From the IMG/VR virus record IMGVR_UViG_3300008266_000337, positions 1-38,769 of that record: a stretch of DNA of 38,769 bases; one strand, given 5' to 3'. The position numbers were made by a program, and so were the translations under genes. Under the pieces are notes generated by a model. The model was given only the letters and a program-made list of their open reading frames with translations, did no database searches and was not told the DNA's origin. Positions 5,566-34,659 of this stretch are shown here, piece after piece (within the stretch, counting starts at the first letter, position 1; every line of letters starts with the position of its first letter). Origin of the DNA: a virus.

Positions 5566-7425
5566 TTATAAAGGTACTATTCTTCCTTGAATATCGGTAT
5601 TAGGATATTTAACTTCAAAAATCATAGGGTCTAAAGATGGATAAATTACATTATTAATAGTTGCTCCTTTTACATCATATGAATAAGGAGAATATCCTAA
5701 ATTTTCACCTGTTAAATTATTCATTTCTATATTTTTAACAGTTTGAACACCTTCAATTCTATCTAATAAAATATAAATATCTCTTAAAATAATTGGTTGA
5801 TTAATTTGCCATTTGTCTACAGCAAAATAATCTTGTAAAGCCAAAATACATTTAGTTAAAATTTCATTACTATTGTAATCAGGCAAAACAATTATATCAA
5901 AATTAACACCAATATTAATGATAAATCCGTCTTTAATACTTACAGCATCTCCTACCATTTTATATTGAGATAAATAGGTATTTAAATTTTGTTTTAAAGC
6001 GGGAGAAGCATTAACTAATTGATTAGATGAATTATAAGATAACACATATAAATCTAAAACAGATTGAGCCTCACCAGCAGATATTGAACTTACTTTTGTT
6101 GGTTCAACATATGCTTTAGCAATAACTCCATATTTAGAAGGCATTGAAAGAGCTCTTACTAAATAATCATCTTGGGTTACGTTACGTAATTGAGAAGCAA
6201 AGTTTGCTGATGAATTTTGTCTTATTTCCTCTATTGTATCTCCATCTCCTCCACCATCAGCTGCATCTGGATTTGTAACTGCTAATGAGTTAAATATAGT
6301 ATTAGCTGTAGTTGAGTTAAGATTTGAATTGATAAAATTAATGGTTCCGGACAATGTTGTTAAATCATTTGATGGAACATTTGATTCAACTCCCCCACCA
6401 GTTAAATATCTTACAGTTAATGTGGTATTAGAAGGTGTTATACCGTAAGTTTTAGTTAATAAAAAGTTATTAGGAGCAAAAGCTGTATTTAATTTTGTTT
6501 TTTCAAAAGGTAATCCTAAACCTACATTATTTGCATTAGGAATTATTTCCTCATCAGTATCTAAAGGATCTCCAGAACCAAATTGGATTTGAAGAGAACC
6601 AGAATTTACAAAACGAGTTGTAAATCTTCTTTGGATTTTTTCTAATTTTAATAAATAAGGAGTATTTGAGGAATCTGTTGAATAATTAGGATCATTTGGG
6701 TTAGTATTCTTAATAGAATTATAAACCATTTCTTGTCCTAAATAATCAACCTCATACCATTCATTTCCATCACTGTCTATAACATCTAAAATACCAATAA
6801 TGTTATCAGTATTAATATTAACAGTAGTATAAGGTTCTGGTAATCCAAATGTAAAAGTAGTTGTACTTATATTAGCTGATATTGCTTTTTTATTTTTTCT
6901 TAATAAGAAATATGTTGGGTTTCCACTTCCATCAACACTAAAAATAGATACTTCTGTGGGATCTAATGAGCTAGAATATGAGAAATCTACAGACTCTTCT
7001 ATTAAGAAACCAACACTAGGAGTATTTGATGAAATTATATTTGAATTTTCAGCTATTAAAAGAGAATAATCAAAGTCAGGAACATAAGTTGAGCCTGAAA
7101 GTTTAGCTGGAACTTGTTGGTAAAAATCAATATTAGTAACAGCCACTTGAGTTACATTTGGTTTATAACCAAACATATAAGCTAACTCATATAAGTTGTT
7201 TGTTTGACGAGCATATTGTAAAAATGTTTCTTGTATCTGATTATCTGTATAAAAAGATAAAACATCACCTACATAAGCGGCCATCTCCATAAACATCATA
7301 CCTGGTGATGTTGGAGAAAAATCATTATAAGTTGTTGGGAAATAAGTACGAGCATAATTAATTAAACTAGCTCTTAATTCCGTAAAATCTTTATTGATGT
7401 ATTGTATATTTCTTTTAATTGCCAT
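5566..7425 (-). CDS. Baseplate wedge protein, gp6/baseplate J-like
   Basis: A 619-aa protein starting with the hallmark of T4 gp6/baseplate-J proteins: an early INKDF-LR-SLI-YARTYFP segment, then SPGMMFMEMAAYVGDVLSFYTDNQIQE, an asparagine-rich loop and a YELAYMFGYKP motif. In myoviruses this subunit dimerises to form the inner baseplate ring that joins the wedges and triggers sheath contraction. The C-terminal part (ILRDIYILLDRIEGVQTV) is the conserved end domain of the family. Length agrees with gp6 (about 660 aa). The ATG at 7425 overlaps the last base of the gp25-like gene, as expected for the conserved gp25-gp6 pair. Confidence 0.92.
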   Translation of the reverse strand: MAIKRNIQYINKDFTELRASLINYARTYFPTTYNDFSPTSPGMMFMEMAAYVGDVLSFYTDNQIQETFLQYARQTNNLYELAYMFGYKPNVTQVAVTNIDFYQQVPAKLSGSTYVPDFDYSLLIAENSNIISSNTPSVGFLIEESVDFSYSSSLDPTEVSIFSVDGSGNPTYFLLRKNKKAISANISTTTFTFGLPEPYTTVNINTDNIIGILDVIDSDGNEWYEVDYLGQEMVYNSIKNTNPNDPNYSTDSSNTPYLLKLEKIQRRFTTRFVNSGSLQIQFGSGDPLDTDEEIIPNANNVGLGLPFEKTKLNTAFAPNNFLLTKTYGITPSNTTLTVRYLTGGGVESNVPSNDLTTLSGTINFINSNLNSTTANTIFNSLAVTNPDAADGGGDGDTIEEIRQNSSANFASQLRNVTQDDYLVRALSMPSKYGVIAKAYVEPTKVSSISAGEAQSVLDLYVLSYNSSNQLVNASPALKQNLNTYLSQYKMVGDAVSIKDGFIINIGVNFDIIVLPDYNSNEILTKCILALQDYFAVDKWQINQPIILRDIYILLDRIEGVQTVKNIEMNNLTGENLGYSPYSYDVKGATINNVIYPSLDPMIFEVKYPNTDIQGRIVPL

Positions 7426-21665: not shown

Positions 21666-21699
21666 ATTGATAAATATGAAACCTTTTTGAGAATTATTG

Positions 21700-21774
21700 T
21701 GGGCCATACAGGATTTGAACCTGTGATCTTCGCATTATGAGTGCGCTGCTTTCACCAGACTAAGCTAAAGGCCC
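21700..21774 (-). tRNA. tRNA with CAT anticodon (Met or lysidine-type Ile)
   Basis: Cloverleaf with acceptor GGGCCTT/ATGGCCC, anticodon loop CTCATAA, T-loop TTCAAAT. The elongator body resembles tRNA-Ile2 (CAT, lysidine-modified) as well as tRNA-Met; sequence alone does not decide. No CCA is encoded. It is the last tRNA of the array and lies at the 5' end of the HExxH gene. Confidence 0.9.
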
Positions 21775-21790
21775 TAATAAATGACTCTAA

Positions 21791-23167
21791 TTAAAGAGCC
21801 ATAATTTTTTCATATCTTTCACTCAATAGAGTTTCCAACATGATTCCTTTTGGAGTAAAATCTTTACCTGCCAAAACGTTTTTAACAATCGATGGAGAGG
21901 CTCCTGAAACTAATGCTACATCTTTAGTATCTGCTGATACTGGAACATTACCTTCCCGTCCGTTTACGTTCCAAAATGCTAATTTTGGCATTTTATAACC
22001 TGCGGCTTCAAACTTATCTTGAATTACTTCAAAATTAGTTCTACCACTACAAGCCTGATTAAACTCCATATCTGAAATAATCAAGATAGTTTCTGGTAAA
22101 TCTGATTGAGATAAGTTGTTTTCCTTTGCTTTATCTAACACTAGGTCAAATACGGATTGCAAATTAGTACTCATACCCCATTCGGCTCTTCTTAACTGAT
22201 TAAATCTTTCAATCACATTACCTTTTAAGTATTGTAATTTTGGAGATTCTGAGAAAGTAATAAAGGCATCTTTAAATACTGATTTATTTCTTTCCGACAA
22301 GTACACACCCAAAGAAACCGAAATTTCCATTGGCAATCCCAACATAGAACCAGATACATCACAAACTGGTAAAAATGAACCTTCTCCCACATAGTCAGGT
22401 AAATTCATCCATTGAGCTAACAATGTGTTTTTATCCATTCCTTTAGTAAAAGATTGATACAATTGATATGGAAATAAAGTACCTGAATTAACTTTAGCTT
22501 CTCCTTTTACAACAGCATTGATAAAACCACTGAATCTATACTCATCATTTCTAGCAAATGCTCTTTTGTATTTTTGGAAAGCTTGTGATGGAATTTTAGA
22601 ATACTCAATAGCATCCCATTCTTTATTACACATAGCAGTTTCAACTACTTTAGTTTTTTCAACAATCATTTTACGGAACTGTTTTGGAGTAATTCCTAAA
22701 TGCTTATGCATTGAAGAAAACCAAATACCTTTACGTGGGAACCATTTAGCTAACAAACCGCTATTTTCTTTTTCTAATTCACTTTTCATCCAATCCAAGT
22801 TAGTAGCATTTGGTGTTAAGATTGTGAAAACATCTTTCCAATAACCATATTCTGGAATTAAGCGAGCATTGAATTCAAAAACTGAAGGATAGTTTTTAAT
22901 AATATAATTTAAGATGATTTGGAAGAATCTACGTTCTCCTGCTCCACCTCTAACGTCACGAGCCCAAAACAGACACTTAACAGCCAAAGTAGGATCTTCA
23001 CTATATGCTTTTACAAACACATTAATTATATCTTGTTCTGACATTCTACGAGAAGCACCTGCTAAGAAAAACATATCTACAACTGCATTCAATGAAGTTG
23101 AGTTAGTCAAAGCCCCATTAGCAGTTAATGAATCTTTTTGTCTCATTGCGTTAATTAAATTGCTCAT
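21791..23167 (-). CDS. TROVE/DUF2828-family protein, Ro60-like
   Basis: A 458-aa protein with the DUF2828/TROVE signature: GALTNSTSLNAVVDMFF and SEDPTLAVKCLFWARDVRGGAGER (residues 18-79, quoted in parts), which in Ro60 form the HEAT-repeat ring, followed by a von Willebrand A-type domain with the MIDAS motif DVSGS (270-274) and ILIISDMEF. Ro60 binds Y RNAs through the ring and clamps misfolded RNAs; bacterial Rsr associates with RNases such as PNPase. Here the gene lies inside the tRNA array. Its 450-nt leader holds structured RNA that could be its ligand. RNA binding is inferred from family, not seen. It is preceded by its own weak promoter. Confidence 0.82.
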   Translation of the reverse strand: MSNLINAMRQKDSLTANGALTNSTSLNAVVDMFFLAGASRRMSEQDIINVFVKAYSEDPTLAVKCLFWARDVRGGAGERRFFQIILNYIIKNYPSVFEFNARLIPEYGYWKDVFTILTPNATNLDWMKSELEKENSGLLAKWFPRKGIWFSSMHKHLGITPKQFRKMIVEKTKVVETAMCNKEWDAIEYSKIPSQAFQKYKRAFARNDEYRFSGFINAVVKGEAKVNSGTLFPYQLYQSFTKGMDKNTLLAQWMNLPDYVGEGSFLPVCDVSGSMLGLPMEISVSLGVYLSERNKSVFKDAFITFSESPKLQYLKGNVIERFNQLRRAEWGMSTNLQSVFDLVLDKAKENNLSQSDLPETILIISDMEFNQACSGRTNFEVIQDKFEAAGYKMPKLAFWNVNGREGNVPVSADTKDVALVSGASPSIVKNVLAGKDFTPKGIMLETLLSERYEKIMAL

Positions 23168-23217
23168 ATCTTTTATTTTTTTCTTTTACGTTTTTTTTGC
23201 CTCTATCACGACCCGCA

Positions 23218-23340
23218 CCTAGCCAATGTTTTGAGGGGTTACTGAGTACGGCATCGGCTAGGGGAGTCGATGATTGAGGTGTTAGATTGTAATTATTATG
23301 TAGTTTATATAATAATTGCTGGTTGTACTCATTCCCTCAA
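23218..23340 (-). ncRNA. Structured leader RNA of the TROVE gene, pseudoknot-capable
   Basis: Read on the minus strand, a long helix joins TTGAGGG/CCCTCAA and GAGTAC/GTACTC (7 plus 6 bp). It encloses a 9-bp hairpin (AATTATTAT/ATAATAATT) and a smaller CATCG/CGATG hairpin. CCTAGCC and GGCTAGG can form a further 7-bp helix that crosses the outer one, giving a pseudoknot or a switch between states. It sits between the last hairpin element and the TROVE start. It may be a regulatory leader or a Ro-binding RNA; function is unknown. Confidence 0.6.
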
Positions 23341-23406
23341 GAAGTTACAGGATTCGTTGTTTTTTCTACCAATGAAAAGCTGAAAATTGCTGCGTGAATC
23401 CTTTTT
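23341..23406 (-). ncRNA. Hairpin RNA element, copy 1
   Basis: On the minus strand AGGATTC and GAATCCT pair (7 bp), preceded by the CACGCAGCAAT-type segment also in copy 3 and followed by GTAACTT. An inner helix (GAAAA/TTTTC) lies in the loop. It is one of three related elements in the TROVE leader region and is transcribed from the weak promoter next to it. Confidence 0.55.
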
Positions 23407-23421
23407 AATTTCTTTATGTCG

Positions 23422-23453
23422 TTAATATAATAACAATCTTTTAAACAGCCAAG
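23422..23453 (-). promoter_or_regulatory. Putative promoter for hairpin element 1 and the TROVE gene
   Basis: Minus-strand TTGGC, then 18-19 nt, then TATATTAA. It resembles the other promoters in this window but is degenerate in the -7 part. Confidence 0.45.
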
Positions 23454-23478
23454 CTATATTAAAAGAGATTTTTAAAAT

Positions 23479-23550
23479 TTACGGGCTTCCATTTTTTTCA
23501 GTCAATGTTTTCGGAATTGAGATAAAAATAGTTGCTGTTGAAAGCCCTTA
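23479..23550 (-). ncRNA. Hairpin RNA element, copy 2 (diverged)
   Basis: Outer helix GGGCTT(T)C with GAAGCCC and the trailing GTAAATT match the layout of copies 1 and 3, but the CACGCAGCAA segment has become CAACAGCAAC. The inner part differs in sequence, as expected for an RNA conserved in shape rather than base identity. Confidence 0.5.
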
Positions 23551-23552
23551 AT

Positions 23553-23620
23553 AAGTTACGGGATGCGATTTGTGTCAAAGTAAAAGTTTGATTTTGTAAA
23601 ATTGCTGCGTGCATCCCTTT
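23553..23620 (-). ncRNA. Hairpin RNA element, copy 3
   Basis: Helix GGGATGC/GCATCCC (7 bp), the shared CACGCAGCAATTTT segment and trailing GTAACTT match copy 1. A TCAAA/TTTGA inner hairpin lies within. It starts at the very next base after the CCA of tRNA-Arg(TCT), so its 5' end would be made by tRNA 3' processing. Confidence 0.55.
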
Positions 23621-23697
23621 TGGTATTCCCGATTGGATTCGAACCAATCACCTACGCATTAGAAGTGCGTTGCTCTATCCAAATGAGCTACGGGAAC
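23621..23697 (-). tRNA. tRNA-Arg(TCT)
   Basis: Acceptor GTTCCCG/CGGGAAT, D-arm GCTCATTTGGATAGAGC, anticodon loop CTTCTAA, T-loop TTCGAAT. CCA is encoded and is directly followed by hairpin element 3. Confidence 0.95.
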
Positions 23698-23702
23698 ATA
23701 TT

Positions 23703-23791
23703 TGGTGGAGAGAGAGGGATTCGAACCCCCGGTACCTTTCGGTACGCCGGTTTTCAAGACCGGTGCATTAAACCAACTCTGCCATCTGTCC
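23703..23791 (-). tRNA. tRNA-Ser(TGA)
   Basis: Class II tRNA with a long variable arm (GTACC..GGTAC), anticodon loop CTTGAAA, T-loop TTCGAAT, CCA encoded. The acceptor GGACAGA/TCTCTCC has one C-C mismatch. Confidence 0.92.
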
Positions 23792-23795
23792 AAAT

Positions 23796-23920
23796 AAGAA
23801 AAAGCTTCGGGTCTTTCGGGGTTTCTGATTAGGTGCAATGAGTGACGCCTACCTACTATAAACCCTTTTTCAGTAATTAATACACTCTACTTCCTAATTA
23901 CAGCTTCACTGCTTTTTCTT
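23796..23920 (-). ncRNA. Pseudoknotted RNA family, copy A
   Basis: A 10-bp outer helix (AAGAAAAAGC/GCTTTTTCTT) closes 125 nt. Inside, CTG-TA-ATTAG pairs with CTAATCAG and GGGTTT pairs with AAACCC; the two helices cross, forming an H-type pseudoknot. The conserved AAGACCCGAA lies after it. The element fills the gap between tRNA-Asp (CCA one base upstream) and tRNA-Ser. A diverged second copy lies at 32377-32510. Confidence 0.65.
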
Positions 23921-23921
23921 T

Positions 23922-23998
23922 TGGCGGCTCGTACGGGACTCGAACCCGTGACCTTCGCCGTGACAGGGCGACATTGTAACCATCTCTACTAACGAGCC
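23922..23998 (-). tRNA. tRNA-Asp(GTC)
   Basis: Acceptor GGCTCGT/ACGAGCC, anticodon loop CTGTCAC, T-loop TTCGAGT, discriminator G and encoded CCA. Its 3' end abuts pseudoknot RNA copy A. Confidence 0.94.
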
Positions 23999-24008
23999 AA
24001 TAAATTTG

Positions 24009-24082
24009 TGGACCAGGTGAGAATCGAACTCACCACACTCTCCTTGCAAGGGAGAATCGCCAGCCTTGGTACATGCCAGCCC
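24009..24082 (-). tRNA. tRNA-Ala(TGC)
   Basis: Anticodon stem CTCC/GGAG around CTTGCAA, T-loop TTCGATT, acceptor GGGCTGG/CTGGTCC with wobble pairs. The D-arm is weak (several wobble pairs). No CCA encoded. Confidence 0.85.
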
Positions 24083-24091
24083 ATTTATTTT

Positions 24092-24164
24092 GTTGTCCCT
24101 GGAGGATTCGAACCTCCACGCTCTGAGTCAAAGTCAGATGAACTGCCATTATTCTAAAGGACAA
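24092..24164 (-). tRNA. tRNA-Gln(TTG)
   Basis: Acceptor TTGTCCT/GGGACAA with the U1 start usual for tRNA-Gln, anticodon loop CTTTGAC, T-loop TTCGAAT. No CCA encoded. Confidence 0.92.
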
Positions 24165-24168
24165 GATA

Positions 24169-24346
24169 ATGAAACTATTTCTCCGGGTTTTACTTATGGT
24201 TTGTTCCCCATAACCTGTTGCCGTGCACAGCAGAGCAGGGACCTGAACATGATACCTTAGGTCATTTAATCTTCGTTGAGGTCATGACTCCTCTGAAGCT
24301 AAGGTTTCTTTCAATGAGTGCTTATCTCATCTTATGTTAGTTTCAT
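24169..24346 (-). ncRNA. Structured RNA between tRNA-Met and tRNA-Gln
   Basis: ATGAAACTA pairs with TAGTTTCAT (9 bp) at the ends of a 178-nt gap whose 5' end abuts the CCA of tRNA-Met. Inside are ACCTTAG/CTAAGGT (7 bp, enclosing CTTC/GAAG and GAGG/CCTC), ATGAG/CTCAT, TTATGG/CCATAA and a GTTC/GAAC helix. No ORF of length is present. It matches no family I know. Confidence 0.55.
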
Positions 24347-24423
24347 GGTTGCGGGAGTGGGAATCGAACCCACCTAGTCCGAGCTTATGAGACTCGTCAG
24401 TGCACCAGCTCTAGTTCCCCGCA
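24346..24423 (-). tRNA. tRNA-Met(CAT)
   Basis: Acceptor TGCGGGG/TCCCGCA, anticodon loop CTCATAA on a CGAGT/GCTCG stem, T-loop TTCGATT, CCA encoded. The acceptor looks initiator-like but the stem lacks the three G-C pairs, so the elongator role is preferred; not settled. Confidence 0.9.
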
Positions 24424-24428
24424 ATTTA

Positions 24429-24503
24429 TGGTAGCCCGTACGAGAATCGAACTCGTCTTTACAGGTTGAAAACCTGGTATCCTAACCGATAGATGAACGG
24501 GCC
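24429..24503 (-). tRNA. tRNA-Glu(TTC)
   Basis: Acceptor GGCCCGT/ACGGGCT, anticodon loop TTTTCAA-type with TTC, T-loop TTCGATT, CCA encoded. Confidence 0.93.
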
Positions 24504-24512
24504 ATTTATTAG

Positions 24513-24584
24513 CTCCCCGGATAGGATTTGAACCTATGACCTAGCGGTTAACAGCCGCTTGCTCTACCACTGAGCTACCGAGGA
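24513..24584 (-). tRNA. tRNA-Asn(GTT)
   Basis: Acceptor TCCTCGG/CCGGGGA, D-arm GCTCAGTGGTAGAGC, anticodon loop CTGTTAA, T-loop TTCAAAT, discriminator G. Confidence 0.95.
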
Positions 24585-24674
24585 ATAATTTGTTTGTCTT
24601 TCCAAACTGTCACCAATTTTGATGGGCTCATCTGATAGCAAAAGCTACCTAGCACTTGAGATTGAAACTCCTTG

Positions 24675-24756
24675 TACCTCGGGCGAGACTCGAACTCGCA
24701 AGCGATAAAGCCACGGTTTCTAAGACCGTTGTGTCTACCATTTCCACCACCAAGGC
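24675..24756 (-). tRNA. tRNA-Leu(TAG)
   Basis: Class II tRNA with anticodon loop CTTAGAA, a variable arm, T-loop TTCGAGT, acceptor GCCTTGG/CCGAGGT. It is directly preceded by a boxA-like GTTCTTTGACAT leader. Confidence 0.94.
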
Positions 24757-24769
24757 ATTTTCTTCTCGC

Positions 24770-24781
24770 ATGTCAAAGAAC
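24770..24781 (-). promoter_or_regulatory. boxA-like antitermination site before tRNA-Leu
   Basis: Minus-strand GTTCTTTGACAT, the form found in leaders of Bacteroidota rRNA operons and similar to bacterial boxA. A second copy (GTTCTTTGACG) precedes tRNA-Phe. In both cases it lies between a promoter and a tRNA. Confidence 0.6.
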
Positions 24782-24810
24782 AACTTTATTGTTTAACTTA
24801 ACAACTCGGT

Positions 24811-24841
24811 AAATATATGAACGATATTTCAAAATTCCAAA
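24811..24841 (-). promoter_or_regulatory. Bacteroidota-type promoter driving tRNA-Leu and downstream array
   Basis: TTTGG at -33, spacer about 20 nt, TATATTT at -7 on the minus strand. It is the only one here with TTTGGA instead of TTTGGC. A TTAGAA-N3-TTCTAA palindrome lies 22 nt upstream. Confidence 0.7.
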
Positions 24842-24863
24842 TTTATTTTAAAAATTTATTCAT

Positions 24864-24878
24864 TTAGAATCGTTCTAA
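24864..24878 (-). promoter_or_regulatory. Palindromic operator-like site (copy a)
   Basis: TTAGAA-CGA-TTCTAA followed by ATGA on the minus strand. It lies exactly 22 nt upstream of the promoter's -33 box, as do three other copies, and two bases from the tRNA-Trp CCA. Confidence 0.65.
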
Positions 24879-24879
24879 T

Positions 24880-24953
24880 TGGCACGAGTAGAAGGATTCG
24901 AACCCTCAACAACGGTTTTGGAGACCGGCATGATACCATTTCACCATACTCGT
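24880..24953 (-). tRNA. tRNA-Trp(CCA)
   Basis: Acceptor ACGAGTA/TACTCGT, anticodon loop CTCCAAA, T-loop TTCGAAT, discriminator G and CCA encoded. Confidence 0.94.
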
Positions 24954-24967
24954 GTATATATTTTTTG

Positions 24968-25038
24968 AGGTCAGTATTGGATTTGAACCAATATAAAAGC
25001 TTTTGCAGAGCCGTACCTTACCTGTCGGACAACTGACC
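24968..25038 (-). tRNA. tRNA-Cys(GCA)
   Basis: Acceptor GGTCAGT/ACTGACC with the U73 discriminator that identifies tRNA-Cys, anticodon loop CTGCAAA, T-loop TTCAAAT. Confidence 0.92.
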
Positions 25039-25047
25039 TTATATTTG

Positions 25048-25121
25048 TAGTTCCTATAGGACTCGAACCTATAACCCCTTCATTCGTAGTGAAGTGCTCT
25101 AATCCATTGAGCTAAGGAACC
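25048..25121 (-). tRNA. tRNA-Arg(ACG)
   Basis: Acceptor GGTTCCT/AGGAACT, D-arm GCTCAATGGATTAGAGC, anticodon loop CTACGAA, T-loop TTCGAGT. Reads CGN with inosine if the host adenosine deaminase acts on it. Confidence 0.95.
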
Positions 25122-25127
25122 AGTTAG

Positions 25128-25580
25128 TTATTTTACTAACATATCAGCAGCGTATGTTGCCATAACACCTAATGATTTGTATCTAACTTTATAACCCATA
25201 CCTTCAACTAAACCAACTGCTGCTCTTAACACTTCATTTGATTTGTATCTTTTATCTGGGTTAACATCTATGTCAATATACTTAACTTGAGGTAAACCTG
25301 CGTTTTTAAGTAATTCTGCTACTTCAACAGATTTCCAAACCTCATTCATTAAACGTACTTGTCTTACTCTTTCAACAGGTAAAACCTCTTTGTTGAATAA
25401 AACATGCGCACCGCCCTTCGGTTTATAAAGTGCAACTACAGTTGCATATGTTGTGTTATACGCATAGTTTTGCGAGTCACACCCAATTAACAATTCGGTG
25501 TCGGGATTCGCGTTTAAATACGATTTAACGTAGTCAACTAAGTCAACTGTTTTTCTGTTTGTTAGGGTCCTGAAGTTCAT
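25128..25580 (-). CDS. RNase H-fold protein of the YkuK/DUF458 family
   Basis: A 150-aa protein with an RNase H-like opening strand LIGCDSQNY (Asp in CDSQ), then VVALYKPKGGAHVLFNKE and a second acidic block YIDIDVNPD, ending in AAVGLVEGMGYKV. This is the layout of YkuK-type putative nucleases. An RNA-processing role would fit its site inside the tRNA array, but the activity is not established for the family. It stands alone between tRNA-Arg and tRNA-Ser and has an ATTATTTATAA box 10-20 nt before its ATG. Confidence 0.75.
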   Translation of the reverse strand: MNFRTLTNRKTVDLVDYVKSYLNANPDTELLIGCDSQNYAYNTTYATVVALYKPKGGAHVLFNKEVLPVERVRQVRLMNEVWKSVEVAELLKNAGLPQVKYIDIDVNPDKRYKSNEVLRAAVGLVEGMGYKVRYKSLGVMATYAADMLVK

Positions 25581-25609
25581 AATCTGTTTTTTATAAATAA
25601 TTTACATAG

Positions 25610-25693
25610 CGGAAAGAGTTGGAGTCGAACCAAATACCCGAAGGTACACATTGCTTAGCAGGCAAGCCCTATCGCCGTCAAGGGTCACTTTCC
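25610..25693 (-). tRNA. tRNA-Ser(GCT)
   Basis: Class II tRNA with anticodon loop CTGCTAA, variable arm GTACC/GGGTA, T-loop TTCGACT, acceptor GGAAAGT/TCTTTCC with one mismatch. Confidence 0.92.
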
Positions 25694-25751
25694 ATGGGGC
25701 CCGATATCCGTTTTTCATCTTACTCGAGCCGACATAAGCATTCACGGGTTG

Positions 25752-25824
25752 GGTGTTTAAGGAGTTTCGAAATCCCAACCTCTCCCGTCACAAGGGAGCG
25801 CTCTTCCTTTGAGCTATAAACACC
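25752..25824 (-). tRNA. tRNA-His(GTG)
   Basis: Acceptor GTGTTTA/TAAACAC plus an encoded G-1 opposite C73, the identity feature of tRNA-His. Anticodon loop TTGTGAC; the T-arm reads GGGATTTCGAAACTCC and is slightly irregular. Confidence 0.92.
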
Positions 25825-25831
25825 ATTTATT

Positions 25832-25908
25832 TGGTGGAGAAAATAGGACTCGAACCTATAACCTTCTACGTATCAGATAGATGCTCTAACCAATTGAGCT
25901 ATATCTCC
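25832..25908 (-). tRNA. tRNA-Ile(GAT)
   Basis: Acceptor GGAGATA/TTTCTCC, D-arm GCTCAATTGGTTAGAGC, anticodon loop CTGATAC, T-loop TTCGAGT, CCA encoded. Confidence 0.94.
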
Positions 25909-25918
25909 ATTTTATTTG

Positions 25919-26000
25919 TGCCTGCAGAAGGACTCGAACCTCCGAACTCAAATGAGAGCTGATTTACAGTCAGCTGCAATTGCCGCTATGCGATACAGGC
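25919..26000 (-). tRNA. tRNA-Tyr(GTA)
   Basis: Class II tRNA with a variable arm, anticodon loop CTGTAAA, T-loop TTCGAGT, acceptor GCCTGTA/TGCAGGC. Confidence 0.94.
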
Positions 26001-26010
26001 ATTTATTTTG

Positions 26011-26086
26011 TCTTTCCTGCTGGATTCGAACCAACGATCTTCTCCGTGTAAAAGAGACGCTTTAAAACCAACTAAGCGAAGGAAAG
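26011..26086 (-). tRNA. tRNA-Val(TAC)
   Basis: Acceptor CTTTCCT/AGGAAAG, anticodon loop TTTACAC, T-loop TTCGAAT. Confidence 0.94.
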
Positions 26087-26138
26087 TGGTCCAACTTTAT
26101 GATTCAAACTATCAACGGCATGTGACTCCTTAGTTTTG

Positions 26139-26212
26139 TGACCCCGTCGAGACTCGAACTCGAAACCCCCTCATTAAAAGTGAGGTGCTCTAACCTATTG
26201 AGCTACGAAGTC
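26139..26212 (-). tRNA. tRNA-Lys(TTT)
   Basis: Acceptor GACTTCG/CGGGGTC, anticodon loop CTTTTAA, D-arm GCTCAATAGGTTAGAGC, T-loop TTCGAGT. Confidence 0.95.
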
Positions 26213-26274
26213 AAATTTGCAGGATATCGCTTAACCTGCTGTGATTGGCCATTTCACATTTAACGATTTTTTTG

Positions 26275-26349
26275 TAGCGTAAGCCGGACTCGAACCGACA
26301 CCATGTCCTCATCCCAAATGAGGCGGCCTACCAATTGGCCGATTACGCT
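26275..26349 (-). tRNA. tRNA-Pro(TGG)
   Basis: Acceptor AGCGTAA/TTACGCT, anticodon loop TTTGGGA, T-loop TTCGAGT. Confidence 0.94.
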
Positions 26350-26357
26350 ATATATTG

Positions 26358-26430
26358 TGCGACGGGAAGGACTCGAACCTTCATGGCCGGATTTTCAGTC
26401 CGGTGCATTGACCATCTTTGCTACCGTCGC
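26358..26430 (-). tRNA. tRNA-Phe(GAA)
   Basis: Acceptor GCGACGG/CCGTCGC, anticodon loop CTGAAAA, T-loop TTCGAGT. A boxA-like site lies 15 nt upstream. Confidence 0.95.
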
Positions 26431-26444
26431 ATTTGCTTCTCATA

Positions 26445-26455
26445 CGTCAAAGAAC
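26445..26455 (-). promoter_or_regulatory. boxA-like site before tRNA-Phe
   Basis: Minus-strand GTTCTTTGACG, matching the site before tRNA-Leu(TAG). It lies just after the hairpin at 26462-26484 and could let polymerase read through it. Confidence 0.55.
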
Positions 26456-26461
26456 TAAAAG

Positions 26462-26484
26462 AGCCCGATCTTGTGAATCGGGCT
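26462..26484 (-). terminator. Hairpin between the 30-aa ORF and tRNA-Phe
   Basis: AGCCCGAT and ATCGGGCT pair over 8 bp with a 7-nt loop; on the minus strand CTTTTAG follows. It may attenuate transcription from the promoter above unless the boxA-like site acts. Confidence 0.5.
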
Positions 26485-26515
26485 TATTTTGTGTTTCAAT
26501 ATGTTTTAAAAAACA

Positions 26516-26608
26516 TCACATCATAAGCCCAATCAATCTAATATCCTCAGACACCGGATTCATCCAAGCGGCTTTAAGACTAAATTGATATGATTTACAA
26601 TGTTTCAT
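26516..26608 (-). CDS. 30-aa ORF downstream of a promoter
   Basis: A 30-residue peptide (MKHCKSYQFSLKAAW start) ends 30 nt before the hairpin. Its ATG follows a Bacteroidota-type promoter. It may be a leader peptide or a small regulatory peptide; it has no recognisable family, and it could be non-coding. Confidence 0.45.
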   Translation of the reverse strand: MKHCKSYQFSLKAAWMNPVSEDIRLIGLMM

Positions 26609-26630
26609 TTTTTATGTTTTAATATGTTAT

Positions 26631-26661
26631 AAATATATGTAAGGGATTTCAAAATGCCAAA
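26631..26661 (-). promoter_or_regulatory. Bacteroidota-type promoter before the 30-aa ORF and tRNA-Phe
   Basis: TTTGGC, about 20 nt, TATATTTA. It drives the small ORF and then the Phe-to-Trp part of the array. Confidence 0.65.
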
Positions 26662-26692
26662 CTATATTGAATTTTTTTTTTCTTTCTTTTTG

Positions 26693-26764
26693 AGCGGGTG
26701 GACAGAATCGAACTGACATCACAGGCTTGGAAGGCTAGTGTAATAACCATTATACGACACCCGC
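26693..26764 (-). tRNA. tRNA-Gly(TCC)
   Basis: Acceptor GCGGGTG/CACCCGC, U73 discriminator, anticodon loop CTTCCAA, D-arm GTATAATGGTTATTAC, T-loop TTCGATT. Confidence 0.93.
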
Positions 26765-26823
26765 TTGGGAGTAGCCTTCGAATAACATTTAAATTGGGGA
26801 GTTAATCAAAGACTACATTTTTG

Positions 26824-26896
26824 AGCGGTAGACAGGATTCGAACCTGCGACCCTAACCTTGGCAAGGTTATGCTCTACCAACTGAGCTACTACCGC
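26824..26896 (-). tRNA. tRNA-Gly(GCC)
   Basis: Acceptor GCGGTAG/CTACCGC, anticodon loop TTGCCAA, D-arm GCTCAGTTGGTAGAGC, U73. Confidence 0.95.
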
Positions 26897-27030
26897 AAAT
26901 AACCTTAACAGTTTCTATTGATCAGATAGGCTTATTAAGGGTTGTTAATACTTATGCCTTGGGCTATTCATATTAACTCGAAGACCTCTATGATGTGCTG
27001 ATCTTACGGGAAGCATCGAGGTACTTTTTG
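26897..27030 (-). ncRNA. Structured, pseudoknot-capable RNA between tRNA-Thr and tRNA-Gly
   Basis: ACCTC-GATG pairs with CATC-GAGGT-type arms (9 bp with a 3-nt bulge). The hairpin loop carries GATCAG, which pairs with CTGATC 75 nt downstream, crossing that helix. A perfect 7-bp GTTAATA/TATTAAC hairpin lies between them. It begins directly after tRNA-Thr. No coding frame is evident. Confidence 0.5.
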
Positions 27031-27103
27031 AGCCGCCTGACGGACTCGAACCGCCGACCCTCTCATTACAAGTGAGAAGCTCTACCAACTGAGCTAAGGA
27101 GGC
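27031..27103 (-). tRNA. tRNA-Thr(TGT)
   Basis: Acceptor GCCTCCT/AGGCGGC, D-arm GCTCAGTTGGTAGAGC, anticodon loop CTTGTAA, T-loop TTCGAGT. Confidence 0.95.
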
Positions 27104-27115
27104 TTTTATGGACAA

Positions 27116-27268
27116 TTAAAGGCTGTCCGTACCTGTGGTGTCTACTGAATTCGTATCAACGGTGATAGAATCAGCTGACAATGAATCAATGTTCGTTGAT
27201 TCGGTTGAGTTGTTAGCACAAGATGCTAAAACAAACATTACTGCGATTGCAAAAATAACTTTTTTCAT
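27116..27268 (-). CDS. Small Ser/Thr/Asp-rich lipoprotein
   Basis: A 50-aa protein with a lipoprotein signal peptide ending in a VLASC lipobox (Cys17) and a tail rich in Ser, Thr, Asp and Asn (TESTNIDSLSADSITVDT). It would sit in the outer membrane or periplasm and is unrelated in sequence to the 78-aa lipoprotein further up. An AATATATTTATA box lies 4-14 nt before its ATG, like the late genes. It lies between tRNA-Leu(TAA) and tRNA-Thr. Confidence 0.75.
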   Translation of the reverse strand: MKKVIFAIAVMFVLASCANNSTESTNIDSLSADSITVDTNSVDTTGTDSL

Positions 27269-27299
27269 TTTGTATAAATATATTAATTTTTCTTTTTTG

Positions 27300-27385
27300 T
27301 ACCGCGGGCCGGGGTCGAACCGGCACTCCCTTTTCAGGGAACAGGATTTTAAGTCCTGCGTGTCTACCTATTTCACCACCGCGGC
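27300..27385 (-). tRNA. tRNA-Leu(TAA)
   Basis: Class II tRNA with anticodon loop CTTAAAA, variable arm TCCCTGAAAAGGGA, T-loop TTCGACC, acceptor GCCGCGG/CCGCGGT. It is the first tRNA of the array. Confidence 0.95.
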
Positions 27386-31318: not shown

Positions 31319-31834
31319 TTATATCGGGGAAAATATATTACCCATATCCTCTATTAATCTCACAACCTCTCCCGACGGTAAATCAAAAAACTCACGGTCA
31401 TTTCTATGACGACAATAGCTTAATTTAGAATGAAGAGCTTGTTCAAAATCATATGGACGGGCACATTTGTACCAATAGACTAATTCCCAATCAACAACCA
31501 CACCGGCATTATTTATTTGTTGTAGTCTTTTTTCCGGTTGATTAGTGGTCATACCTATCTTACACATATCCGGATATTGTCTATTAATTAAGACATACAC
31601 ATAGCCTCCAAGGCCATTTTTACGTGATTCATCAGTATTGTGAGATCCTATATAACGGAAATAGATGATAGATTCCCACCCATCGGAGGACGGATATCGT
31701 GGATCTAGAGAAGGTACTCGTGTATGGTGAGTAATATGGGTCATAATACTACCACCATATCCATCAGATTTAGCCTCTATCCGGATATACTCTGGATTAT
31801 TTAGGATTTCATCGGGGGAAAGGTAAATGCTCAT
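31319..31834 (-). CDS. GIY-YIG/T5orf172-type nuclease-like protein
   Basis: The start at MSIYLSPDEILNNPEYI is chosen because it lies 8 nt after the upstream gene. The 171-aa product has a MUG113/T5orf172-like C-terminal half: GYVYVLINRQYPDMCKIG, RLQQINNAG, VYWYKCARPYDFEQALHSKL and REFFDLPSG. These are the positions that correspond to the Y-Y, KIG, E-LH and EWF marks of the GIY-YIG fold. It ends the 32308-31319 operon. The substrate is unknown; homing or defence roles are possible. Confidence 0.75.
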   Translation of the reverse strand: MSIYLSPDEILNNPEYIRIEAKSDGYGGSIMTHITHHTRVPSLDPRYPSSDGWESIIYFRYIGSHNTDESRKNGLGGYVYVLINRQYPDMCKIGMTTNQPEKRLQQINNAGVVVDWELVYWYKCARPYDFEQALHSKLSYCRHRNDREFFDLPSGEVVRLIEDMGNIFSPI

Positions 31835-31842
31835 ATATTTGT

Positions 31843-32040
31843 TTATAATCGCGATTCTATGGCTTTCGCCACCTTCGTCCAATCAATAGCGCTCAACGTT
31901 ATTATACCACATTTAACGCGTATAAACGCACCAAACCGGGCCTCATAATCATAACAAGGTAAATTCCTAACAGATTCAATACAAGCGGGGGTAGATAAAA
32001 GCTTATCGATAGCTTGTTGGGTATATTTTTCGTTAATCAT
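31843..32040 (-). CDS. Small unrecognised protein (65 aa)
   Basis: An open frame with MINEKYTQQAIDKLLSTP and a helix-turn-helix-like spacing, two Cys and mostly charged ends. No family is recognised. Its ATG overlaps the stop of the 23-aa ORF in an ATGA junction. Confidence 0.6.
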   Translation of the reverse strand: MINEKYTQQAIDKLLSTPACIESVRNLPCYDYEARFGAFIRVKCGIITLSAIDWTKVAKAIESRL

Positions 32041-32510: not shown

Positions 32511-32614
32511 TGGTAGTTAGGGAAGGATTTGAACCTTCACGCCTTTGCGGTTTATCCGACCCTTCCGGCTACTCTATGGGATAAGTTAGCGTCTACCAAT
32601 TCCGCCACCTAACT
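32511..32614 (-). tRNA. tRNA-like RNA with expanded anticodon arm (Leu-type body)
   Basis: Acceptor AGTTAGG/CCTAACT, D-arm GCGGAATTGGTAGACGC, T-arm GAAGGTTCAAATCCTTC, CCA encoded, and a small CGC/GCG variable arm give a tRNA-Leu body. The anticodon arm is TTATCC/GGATAA with a 21-nt loop in place of 7, so no ordinary anticodon is presented. It might be a tRNA with an insert, or a tRNA-mimic. Confidence 0.55.
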
Positions 32615-32659
32615 ATATTGCCGTCTATTCCGAGCTGTCAACCACTTTTAGGATTTTGT

Positions 32660-32740
32660 AGTCAAGACAGGATTCGAACCTGTAACGATGCAACCATATA
32701 GGATGTGATAACCATTTTCACATTACGCATTACCTGACTA
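32660..32740 (-). ncRNA. tRNA-like RNA with rearranged centre (81 nt)
   Basis: Acceptor AGTCAGG/CTTGACT, T-arm ACAGGTTCGAATCCTGT and a D-arm-like ATGTGA-AAATGGTTA-TCACAT hairpin are present. Between these the chain has ATGC/GCAT pairing instead of a normal anticodon stem, so no anticodon can be placed. Shares its acceptor and T-arm with the RNAs at 34284 and 34478. Confidence 0.5.
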
Positions 32741-32745
32741 TATTT

Positions 32746-33294
32746 TTATTTCATTTCAAAACCATACCAAACAGATCTGTATAATCCGTGTTTATTTTCG
32801 TTTGTATTGCCATACAATACCCCATTTATAACAGCCACCGCATGACCTTGAACAATTAATACAAAACGACCTACTGGATTATTTTCCATAAATGATTTTA
32901 ATGTATATCCGGTTGGTTTTTTATATTGTCTGTTGATTAACACTTTGTTGCTACCAACTGAGTAACTCATATTGCGTGATGGATGAGCCCCTATAAAACT
33001 AATTTTGTAACCGTTTTTGGTTTTACCAATAATTTTCTTGGCATAAGCATTTGTAAATGTACCTTTACGGTCTTGACGTTTTAATTCCTTTTTAACCCAA
33101 GCGTGTGCTTTATCATATGGAATATTTAAGGCAGCCATAAATGCTCTAACTACACAATCGTTATCCTCTGTTTTAGATAATTCACTTTGTGAATCTGCTA
33201 ACTTCATAGTGTCAACGTAAAATTCGGACTTGATAGCCTCTATTTCTTTAACCCTAAAATAACCTGCTGGAACTTGAATTTTTTCTGTAATCAT
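32746..33294 (-). CDS. Papain-like fold protein (possible cysteine peptidase)
   Basis: A 182-aa protein with a candidate nucleophile in TEDNDCVVRAFMAALNI and a histidine block VLIVQGHAVAVINGVLY that fit the Cys...His order of papain-like (C39/NlpC type) enzymes. The N-terminus (IQVPAGYFRVKEI) has no known role. Phage proteins of this type may act in capsid processing or host-protein cleavage; activity is inferred only. It has its own promoter and AAAGGTTATG leader. Confidence 0.65.
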   Translation of the reverse strand: MITEKIQVPAGYFRVKEIEAIKSEFYVDTMKLADSQSELSKTEDNDCVVRAFMAALNIPYDKAHAWVKKELKRQDRKGTFTNAYAKKIIGKTKNGYKISFIGAHPSRNMSYSVGSNKVLINRQYKKPTGYTLKSFMENNPVGRFVLIVQGHAVAVINGVLYGNTNENKHGLYRSVWYGFEMK

Positions 33295-33317
33295 AACCTT
33301 TATTTCTTTAACACGGG

Positions 33318-33348
33318 GAATATATGAACAATTTCTGCGGGAGCCAAA
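33318..33348 (-). promoter_or_regulatory. Bacteroidota-type promoter for the papain-like gene
   Basis: TTTGGC, 20 nt, TATATTCCC and then the AAAGGTTATG leader. Confidence 0.75.
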
Positions 33349-33355
33349 TGGATTT

Positions 33356-33559
33356 TTAAAATATTGGACCTTTTTTCTCTAAGTTTTTTAAATCAAATTC
33401 CTCAATTGAAACATCACCATCTATACCCTCATTATTACTGTATGCGTATCTTAATGCCTCTTCTTTAGTACCGTTGTATAAGGTACTGATGTAGTGACCT
33501 GAACAATCGTATCCACTGTATTCTAACCAAGTAATTTTATATATAACCTTTATTTCCAT
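33356..33559 (-). CDS. Small acidic protein (67 aa), leaderless or ATA-start
   Basis: A 67-aa frame starting MEIKVIYKITWLEYSGYD. Its ATG is only about 5 nt after the -7 box, so translation from it would be leaderless. At the place where other genes carry AAAGGTTATG this one has AAAGGTTATA in frame, which would start at ATA (position 33544). Function is unknown; the C-terminus is acidic (DVSIEEFDL). Confidence 0.55.
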   Translation of the reverse strand: MEIKVIYKITWLEYSGYDCSGHYISTLYNGTKEEALRYAYSNNEGIDGDVSIEEFDLKNLEKKGPIF

Positions 33560-33564
33560 ATCGG

Positions 33565-33595
33565 GAATATACGTATATCCTTTGCGATAGCCAAA
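33565..33595 (-). promoter_or_regulatory. Bacteroidota-type promoter for the 67-aa gene
   Basis: TTTGGC, 20 nt, TATATTCCC. Confidence 0.7.
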
Positions 33596-33893
33596 TTTCT
33601 TTTTAAGAGATCTTTTTTTGGTCTTTTGGATTTTTGAAAATTTTGGCCATATGGACTTTGCGCGCGCATTGGGGGGATATATAAGGATATACCTTGTCGA
33701 GGCGTTATAGGTATATTATATCTAGGGTTACATCTAATACCTTTTCCCCACATATACACGCCCGATGGACTACTGCGCGCGTGGGTACCTAATACGGCTA
33801 TATACCGTATATATGCCGCCCGCCATACTACCATACAACGGGAGTACCCCCATCGGGGTACCCCACGTACTATATAATAATAAAATAAAGGTC
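33596..33893. other. 298-nt non-coding stretch with unusual GC-rich repeats
   Basis: No convincing gene in either strand. It holds GCGCGCGC-like repeats (two copies of GCGCGC), TATACC/GTATAT near-palindromes and a perfect GTACCCC/GGGGTAC hairpin (33844-33861). Its composition is unlike the AT-rich flanks. It may be an origin, a regulatory hub or a recent insertion; nothing decides this. Confidence 0.5.
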
Positions 33894-34067
33894 CTATTTA
33901 CCCTGCATTGATTGCAGTTCCGCGATAACGGCTTTAATTGTTCCAATATGCCATCCACATTCAAATGAGGTGCCACGTTCCAATCCATGTTTTGCCCCCT
34001 CGTCCAACTGGGCGATTAATGTTTTCTCCAGTGCCTTAAGGCGCTGTTGTATCTCTAGTTTACTCAT
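33894..34067 (-). CDS. Small helical protein (57 aa)
   Basis: The start at MSKLEIQQRLKALEKTLIAQ follows the previous stop by one base; an earlier in-frame ATG lies inside the upstream gene. The chain reads HGLERGTSFECGWHIGTIKAVI. No family is recognised. It is the second gene of a two-gene operon. Confidence 0.6.
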   Translation of the reverse strand: MSKLEIQQRLKALEKTLIAQLDEGAKHGLERGTSFECGWHIGTIKAVIAELQSMQGK

Positions 34068-34068
34068 A

Positions 34069-34176
34069 TTATTTTCCTGCTGCTGCATAAAGGGCAATTA
34101 CGGCTACAGCCAAAAATAACACCACCGCAGTAATAATAGCGGTTCCAATTAAACATTCTTTAATAAAATTTTTCAT
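34069..34176 (-). CDS. 35-aa membrane peptide
   Basis: MKNFIKECLIGTAIITAVVL begins a 35-residue chain with one hydrophobic helix ending in AAAGK. Its ATG follows a 40-nt leader behind a promoter; the usual AAAGGTTATG site is AAAGGTTATA there. It shares an operon with the 57-aa gene. Confidence 0.6.
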   Translation of the reverse strand: MKNFIKECLIGTAIITAVVLFLAVAVIALYAAAGK

Positions 34177-34219
34177 GATAAAAATATATTTTTATTTATA
34201 ACCTTTATTTCCATGATGT

Positions 34220-34250
34220 GAATATACGAAATGGATCTCGGGGAGCCAAA
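34220..34250 (-). promoter_or_regulatory. Bacteroidota-type promoter for the 35-aa operon
   Basis: TTTGGC, 20 nt, TATATTCAC. Confidence 0.75.
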
Positions 34251-34283
34251 TAAACTTGCAAGTTTATCTCAAATCTGTTTTTG

Positions 34284-34432
34284 TAGTCAGGACAGGATTC
34301 GAACCTGTATTAGTATTATAGAGACTCTTCACTAACCTGGCTTGACTAAGGGTAGAATAACGAAACATGCGGTTTACATTCTTTGCCTTGCCATCTCTGC
34401 GCCCAGTGCGTCTACCATTCCGCCACCTGACT
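34284..34432 (-). tRNA. tRNA-like RNA with about 59-nt insert in the anticodon arm (Leu-type body)
   Basis: Acceptor AGTCAGG/CCTGACT, D-arm GCGGAATGGTAGACGC, T-arm ACAGGTTCGAATCCTGT, and a variable-arm-like TTAGT/ACTAA. The anticodon stem CTGG/CCAG encloses about 66 nt with its own helices (AGAAT/ATTCT, AAAC/GTTT and AAGG/CCTT). It could be a tRNA with a large insert, or a tRNA-mimic bearing a Y-RNA-like arm. Confidence 0.5.
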
Positions 34433-34477
34433 ATATACACTTCCTCTATTCGTTGTATAGTGTGAACCAACCCATAG

Positions 34478-34598
34478 TAGTCAGGACAGGATTCGAACCT
34501 GCAAAGAAGGGTGTTTACCAACTTCTTTTATTATGGGGATTATTGCACTACCCCTAATCCATGTGCTTTGGATGCGTCAACCATTCCGCCACCTGACT
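34478..34598 (-). tRNA. tRNA-like RNA with expanded variable region
   Basis: Same acceptor and nearly the same T-arm and D-arm as the neighbouring RNA, and an intact 5-bp anticodon stem ATCCA/TGGAT. Its loop AAGCACA would present GCA but has A, not U, at position 33. Between anticodon arm and T-arm lie about 50 extra nt with two hairpins (GGGG/CCCC and AAAGAAG/CTTCTTT). It is directly transcribed from its own promoter. Confidence 0.5.
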
Positions 34599-34628: not shown

Positions 34629-34659
34629 GAATATACGAACCCTATTCCGGGGAGCCAAA
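34629..34659 (-). promoter_or_regulatory. Bacteroidota-type promoter for the tRNA-like RNAs
   Basis: TTTGGC, 20 nt, TATATTCAC with no CDS behind it before the tRNA-like RNA at 34598. It shows that these RNAs are made from a strong phage promoter. Confidence 0.75.

Follow-up and report, generated by a model that had tools for sequence, protein, structure and literature searches.

Why would a phage encode transfer RNA (tRNA)-like elements that keep the two ends of a tRNA and differ in everything between them? The question is raised by four such elements, T1 to T4, on the minus strand of the IMG/VR virus record IMGVR_UViG_3300008266_000337, which was analysed over its whole length of 38,769 nucleotides (nt; 38.8 kb, hereafter the window) and in which a preliminary description had singled them out. 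Our answer, which we hold to be probable on balance, is that T1-T4 belong to a phage-specific class of non-decoding RNAs built on a tRNA scaffold, whose structured centres are exchanged horizontally and serve as effector modules. Sequence comparison shows the constant shell, the structured variable centre, the exchange and the phage specificity, and from these we infer the effector function of the centre.

T2, T3 and T4 begin with 5' AGTCAGG and end with 3' CAGGTTCGAATCCTGT-C[CT]TGACT-A, and T1, T3 and T4 have in common the Leu-type D-arm GGCGGAAT(T)GGT-GACGC; the preliminary description had reported one acceptor and T-arm core in three RNAs and one D-arm in three, and both statements hold. 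The common end sequences match one another at E values of 1e-4 to 2e-7. Their middles differ as had been described: T1 has a 21-nt anticodon-arm loop closed by UUAUCC/GGAUAA; T2 is rearranged, with no Leu-type D-arm, a displaced D-arm-like hairpin (UGUGA...GG...UCACA) inside an extra AUGC/GCAU helix, and a short CC/GG stem; in T3 the anticodon loop is replaced by one of 62 nt, flanked by ACUGG and CCAGGU, and the variable arm is UUAGU/ACUAA; and T4 has an anticodon arm, AUCCA-AAGCACA-UGGAU, in which position 33 is A and not U, followed by a variable region of ~54 nt that holds two hairpins. A 5-bp anticodon stem with a 7-nt loop and U33 occurs in none of T1-T4, again as had been claimed, and ARAGORN calls none of the four (0/4) as a tRNA. 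A search with a tRNA-type covariance model, a kind of check proposed at the time, bears out the likeness to tRNA: the Rfam tRNA model (RF00005) matches T3 (39.1 bits, E 6e-5) and T1 (37.3 bits, E 2e-4) despite their inserts, and the Rfam scan of the window gave no other family at T1-T4. Because Rfam gives only tRNA at these positions, we file the elements by their shell as tRNA-like RNAs and not as tRNAs, transfer-messenger RNA (tmRNA), Y RNAs or intron-bearing tRNAs.

The same ends recur far beyond the window; a search for relatives in other phages had been among the checks proposed earlier. A 25-nt end pattern of acceptor and D-arm is present in at least 120 IMG/VR viral contigs versus four genome contigs, which resemble phage pieces inside metagenome bins, and nearly every match is followed, 72 to ~200 nt downstream, by the same T-arm and 3' acceptor. 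The shell comprises a 7-bp acceptor, AGTCAGG/CCTGACT, and a T-arm, CAGG-TTCRANT-CCTG, usually with a Leu-type D-arm, U48 and A73. T2 and T3 have the acceptor, T-arm and U48 (with one G-U pair in the T2 acceptor), T4 has the acceptor and T-arm, and T1, with DNA ends AGTTAGG/CCTAACT and T-arm AAGGTTCAAATCCTT, is a near variant. Position 48 is the partner of A15 in Leu-type tRNAs. Among 270 distinct elements without a canonical anticodon arm, the sequence is exactly AGTCAGG in 245, and U48, directly before the T-stem, is found in 257 (95%), as the A15-U48 tRNA core requires; A73 is found in 238 and C74 in 264, and CCA is encoded in only seven. The 3' shell is present in 23 of 25 large viral records, in and around their tRNA arrays, with up to 14 copies per record on one strand, and a reversed control gave none. 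The centres of the 270 elements form 190 sequence clusters (Chao1 estimate ~560); as a set they beat dinucleotide shuffles for helices and pseudoknots, with 31% in the best 10%, and compensatory pairs are seen inside several centre families. Since the shell was the bait by which most loci were retrieved, some of its conservation follows from the search itself; that it is nevertheless real is argued by the T2 family and by further copies lying next to retrieved ones. ARAGORN misses most class members and labels others tRNA-Ile, tRNA-Glu and so on. Five contigs (L033, L072, L169, L178 and L446) have shells with an additional D-loop hairpin before the GG pair that contacts the T-loop.

Searched with up to two mismatches, the 3' shell (acceptor plus T-arm) is absent from 295 other genomes of the Bacteroidota phylum: of 296 genomes sampled from the phylum to which a Chitinophagaceae bin belongs, that bin alone matches, and it does so through a phage-like contig. 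As the other 295 genomes are empty of the shell, we regard it as a phage signature and not a host tRNA, and reject mimicry of a host tRNA sequence. The suggestion that T1-T4 are tRNA mimics thus survives in part: they are tRNA-like and not ordinary tRNAs, but mimicry of a particular tRNA does not fit the absence of the shell from 295 genomes or the lack of a Leu-type D-arm in T2. No match spanning the joined ends was obtained among phage isolates and plasmids.

Covariation strongly backs the predicted structure of T2. A search pattern that put no constraint on the acceptor, the T-arm or most of the hairpin recovered a family of 31 distinct sequences, T2 included, in two classes of 80 and 120 nt, and the acceptor, though not specified, is AGTCAGG in 18/31 and fits [AG]GT[CT][AG][AG]G in 29/31, varying through compensatory pairs. 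In a MAFFT alignment of 16 short-class members that was not fitted to the structure, 99.0% of cells are paired and 13 of 24 pairs have changed on both sides; none of five measures was reached by shuffles (0/500), and slid controls pair at 34-45%. These results bear on the possibility that T1-T4 are degenerate tRNA-Leu pseudogenes or recombination scars, left behind as phage arrays decay, middles drift and ends persist. The Leu-type D-arm, the position in or near tRNA arrays and the weak nested folding of T1-T3 would suit such an origin, yet we consider it very unlikely in view of the T2 covariation, the retention of U48, A73 and C74 at 88-98%, the maintenance of centre families across contigs with compensatory pairs, and the elements' own promoters. 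The ends speak in the same direction, as AGTCAGG is constant whereas the ordinary tRNA acceptors within the same arrays differ from each other, and AGTCAGG is not among the commonest acceptors of 30 canonical-arm Leu-type tRNAs from the same loci.

The size of the centres also bears on whether T1-T4 could be unusual intron-bearing tRNAs from which the centre, wholly or partly, is spliced to leave a normal decoding tRNA, as the Leu-type shell and the long T3 loop, placed where tRNA introns sit, might suggest. The shortest entire centres in relatives measure 23-26 nt, which could not accommodate both an intron and an anticodon arm, and the conserved U48 of the tRNA core comes from the centre itself, so that the earlier judgement that simple introns are unlikely is reinforced. 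Moreover, a 5-bp/7-nt arm is in place in just 1 of 224 AGTCAGG elements examined, no Rfam intron family matched in the window, and each centre family would require different splicing; we find this explanation barely credible.

The swapping of centres, which had been proposed from the four RNAs of one record, proves literally true across phage populations, in which orthologous loci carry unrelated centres. Non-redundant elements on different contigs were taken to occupy the same locus when their upstream and downstream DNA both aligned up to the element. In a first set, 9 of 27 orthologous pairs had unrelated centres within shells that were 92-100% identical and flanks that were 83-99% identical; centre identity in the nine was 0.44-0.60 versus 0.42-0.51 for shuffles, with three pairs (L088/L188, L088/L043 and L088/L086) somewhat above their own shuffles and the remaining six not. 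Ordinary tRNAs, examined as a control, had a centre identity below 0.6 in just 2 of 56 orthologous pairs, both of which kept the same anticodon. A second set, obtained by scanning for a -7 box 5 nt before A1 and comprising 73 contigs in all, gave unrelated centres in 148 of 163 same-locus pairs, pairs within one locus not being independent. At one locus, between a 189-amino-acid gene and a 215-amino-acid gene downstream of a terminase gene, 18 contigs hold at least 10 unrelated centre families between flanks of median 90% identity over 500 bp each side; such family counts are lower bounds because a loose threshold merged some centres, and families present there occur again at a second locus. 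The pairing of shell variants with centres changes as well: L025 and L152 share one centre but differ in T-loop sequence (GATTCC and CAAGTCC), and L017 has another centre with GATTCC, which places the breakpoints at or inside the shell ends.

Such precise swapping between fixed ends, together with the terminal inverted repeats, could also be read at the level of DNA, with AGTCAGG/CCTGACT as the termini of a small element that is mobile or exchanged site-specifically and whose RNA appearance is incidental. We give this reading very little credence: the ends obey the rules of tRNA D- and T-arms, including U48, the acceptors of the T2 family change by compensatory pairs, the copies lie on one strand in each record, and promoters point into the elements. 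The motif TTTGGCT-N17-TATATTC, the Bacteroidetes form of phage promoter, occurs eight times in the window, always on the minus strand, against 0.00 expected; one stands before T4, which together with T3 forms a separate unit in the order promoter, T4, T3, with no open reading frame (ORF) between, and the remaining copies stand before ORFs. Across the class, 23 of 269 elements (2.6 expected) have a TAnnTTTG box no more than 22 nt upstream, and where it is immediately upstream its position suggests that transcription may start at or near A1. Terminator-like sites equal the number expected by chance. Matches to sigma-70-type promoters near T1-T4 were discounted, the region being A+T-rich.

Positions of the features discussed (Table 1) place T2 a few bases past the stop codon of the PHROG 3754 gene, with T1 after T2. 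Other AGTCAGG tRNA-likes lie ~0.5-1.8 kb upstream of this gene in 4 of 10 relatives, a synteny that suggests centre exchange for the window's own four RNAs also. The ordinary tRNA genes of the window, 23 in number, form a near-complete set that serves 19 amino acids, Ala alone missing. Within their array lies a freshwater-1 RNA, which may belong to the same RNA-rich region, and near the tRNA-likes lies a T5orf172 (GIY-YIG-type) domain protein that is possibly a homing nuclease.

Table 1. Features of the window and of related contigs, with positions in the record named.
Feature	Record	Positions	Strand	Description
T1	window	32515..32614	minus	AGUUAGG/CCUAACU acceptor; short variable arm; A73 at 32514; CCA encoded at 32511-32513
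T2	window	32660..32739	minus	Acceptor and T-arm with rearranged middle; conserved family member; A73 at 32659
T3	window	34285..34432	minus	AGUCAGG acceptor; Leu-type D-arm; A73 at 34284
T4	window	34479..34598	minus	AGUCAGG acceptor; Leu-type D-arm; 7-nt loop; long variable region; A73 at 34478
Phage promoter, Bacteroidetes type	window	34629..34659	minus	TTTGGCT-N17-TATATTC; reads straight into T4-T3
PHROG 3754 gene	window	32746..33294	minus	182 amino acids, function not known; directly upstream of T2
Ordinary tRNA genes	window	21699..27385	minus	
freshwater-1 RNA	window	24188..24249	minus	RF02979, 74.3 bits
T5orf172 domain protein	window	31319..31882	minus	
DUF2828/DUF7788 protein	window	21791..23167	minus	PHROG 850
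T-loop-less allele	L399, L407, L418, L430, L437, L440, L449, L452, L454, L457			AGTCAGG...GGCCCTCCCCTGACT
tmRNA, GOLLD RNA, many tRNAs and AGTCAGG tRNA-likes in one array	L261	2075..2566, 5866..6283		

Other RNAs with tRNA-like ends came to light alongside the AGTCAGG elements. A 76-nt family (CGGCACATATACCCTCC...) in L060, L101, L105 and L113 has different yet complementary acceptors and no normal anticodon arm, and L028 and L030 look like divergent members of it. A 67-nt tRNA-like (GGCTATGTGGTGG...) with a very short D-loop occurs in L017, L025, L034, L041 and L187, in some contigs just downstream of AGTCAGG elements. RNAs of 140-150 nt with tRNA ends and GGGTAAATGA-type cores in L061, L081, L097 and L012 apparently form another family.

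The centre takes the place of the anticodon and variable arms, and its unrelated structured families number in the hundreds; in the explanation we propose, the shell would fold as a tRNA elbow. Maturation and protection would be tRNA-like, in that RNase P or the transcription start would set A1, and 3' trimming and CCA addition would yield a stable RNA; RNase P may not always be needed, since the TAnnTTTG box points to a start at or near A1. The centre would be the effector and, most likely, a structured RNA able to bind or sequester a factor of the host or of a competitor, for instance a defence component. Rivalry would favour quick replacement of one module by another, and the short constant ends may double as homology arms for the exchange. 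A role in host takeover or counter-defence is probable, and we prefer it because rapid replacement with intact flanks is the pattern of genes under rivalry. Whether Bacteroidetes phages possess a hypervariable RNA system, in which hundreds of structured effector modules in one tRNA shell are swapped at dedicated loci, seems to us evenly balanced.

The shell might instead act alone, as a decoy that sequesters a tRNA-binding factor such as leucyl-tRNA synthetase (LeuRS) or a defence nuclease that cleaves tRNA, the centre serving merely to prevent decoding. LeuRS is known not to read the anticodon, most elements combine the Leu-type D-arm with A73, and the phages of the class have large tRNA arrays, all of which would agree with such a decoy. 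However, inert filler would not need to be structured, conserved within families and exchanged as units, T2 has no Leu-type D-arm, and 12% of elements are without A73, so that we judge a pure decoy unlikely. Members that have A73 and the Leu-type D-arm could be leucylated, but leucylation cannot be a general property.

Several observations weigh against the effector explanation as a whole. T1-T4 and their class are known here from DNA sequence alone. The nested folding of T1, T2 and T3 is no better than that of shuffles (z -0.3, -0.6 and +0.3), T4 alone being notable (z -2.45), and as these energies alone are weak we claim structure from comparison, not from energy. The T1 and T3 centres have no relatives among the loci compared and the T4 centre pattern was not found in the viral contigs scanned; exchange is therefore demonstrated at related loci, not for these four. 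A single charging reaction for all members is unlikely, because ~12% lack A73 and T2 lacks the Leu-type D-arm, and a variant in 10 contigs has lost the T-loop, its acceptor ends remaining constant. Finally, the centres have no excess complementarity to their own contigs (mean longest match 9.34 versus 9.36 for shuffles), which makes a cis-antisense role unlikely. This last result bears equally on the idea that the elements are antisense small RNAs whose centres pair with messenger RNAs from within a tRNA scaffold: a stable scaffold with exposed loops might serve that purpose and the diversity of centres might suit many targets, but own-contig complementarity is not enriched and the centres are compact and pseudoknot-prone, and we hold such a function to be distinctly unlikely.

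If the effector explanation is right, T1-T4 would represent a novel type of viral non-coding RNA, in which a naturally occurring tRNA scaffold holds interchangeable cargo, behaving as a whole like the exchange of anti-defence genes, but in RNA. Members of the class are common in environmental phages, and annotation either overlooks them or names them wrongly. The rapid turnover of centres at set positions points to a site of phage competition, and each centre family may indicate an unidentified host or phage factor.

In the open-access PubMed Central (PMC) literature we found no description of such RNAs; their likeness to known systems is in each case partial. Bacterial Y RNAs of the YrlA type are non-coding RNAs with a tRNA-like module, and the window, too, encodes beside its tRNA array a DUF2828/DUF7788 protein with the PHROGs label RNA-binding, possibly a Ro60-like RNA-binding protein. 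No Y RNA family in Rfam matched in the window, and the DUF2828 protein, whose structure model is poor (predicted local distance difference test score 43), occurs only in this window among 45 records; it is absent by both profile and protein query from the 44 other viral records, which carry these RNAs or are controls, although the profile was silent in control genomes too, and it is therefore unlikely to be a general partner. The large non-coding RNAs tmRNA and GOLLD RNA also stand beside phage tRNAs, and in L261 both share one array with the class. Neither tmRNA (RF00023) nor GOLLD matches in the window or at T1-T4, although tmRNA does match in L261, and in contrast to both, the class RNAs measure ~72-200 nt and have variable centres. 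The tRNA-like RNAs of murine gammaherpesvirus 68 carry precursor microRNA cargo, are eukaryotic and transcribed by RNA polymerase III, and have their hairpins outside the tRNA body. Compared by description only, the cargo of the present class lies inside, replacing the anticodon arm. A title cited in PMC6409571 names this virus as one with tRNA-like RNAs. Engineered tRNA scaffolds, such as aptamer-tagged tRNAs (PMC7590224), place foreign RNA in a tRNA body, whereas the present class is natural and non-decoding and has its inserts swapped. The nearest precedent is provided by RNAs C and D of phage T4, which are phage-encoded and stable, with demonstrated expression and a function that is not known (PMC9697503). 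Both rnaC (139 nt) and rnaD (119 nt) border a phage tRNA cluster, and a tRNA T-arm, CCGGGTTCGAATCCCGG, lies close to the 3' end of rnaC, features that recall the elements described here; unlike those elements, they have no constant AGTCAGG shell, form no multi-copy family and show no known exchange of centres. A generic scan detected no shell extending across rnaC and none at all in rnaD, so that at most the T-arm is held in common. If our explanation is correct, hundreds of analogues open to experiment would become available for the question of what RNAs C and D do.
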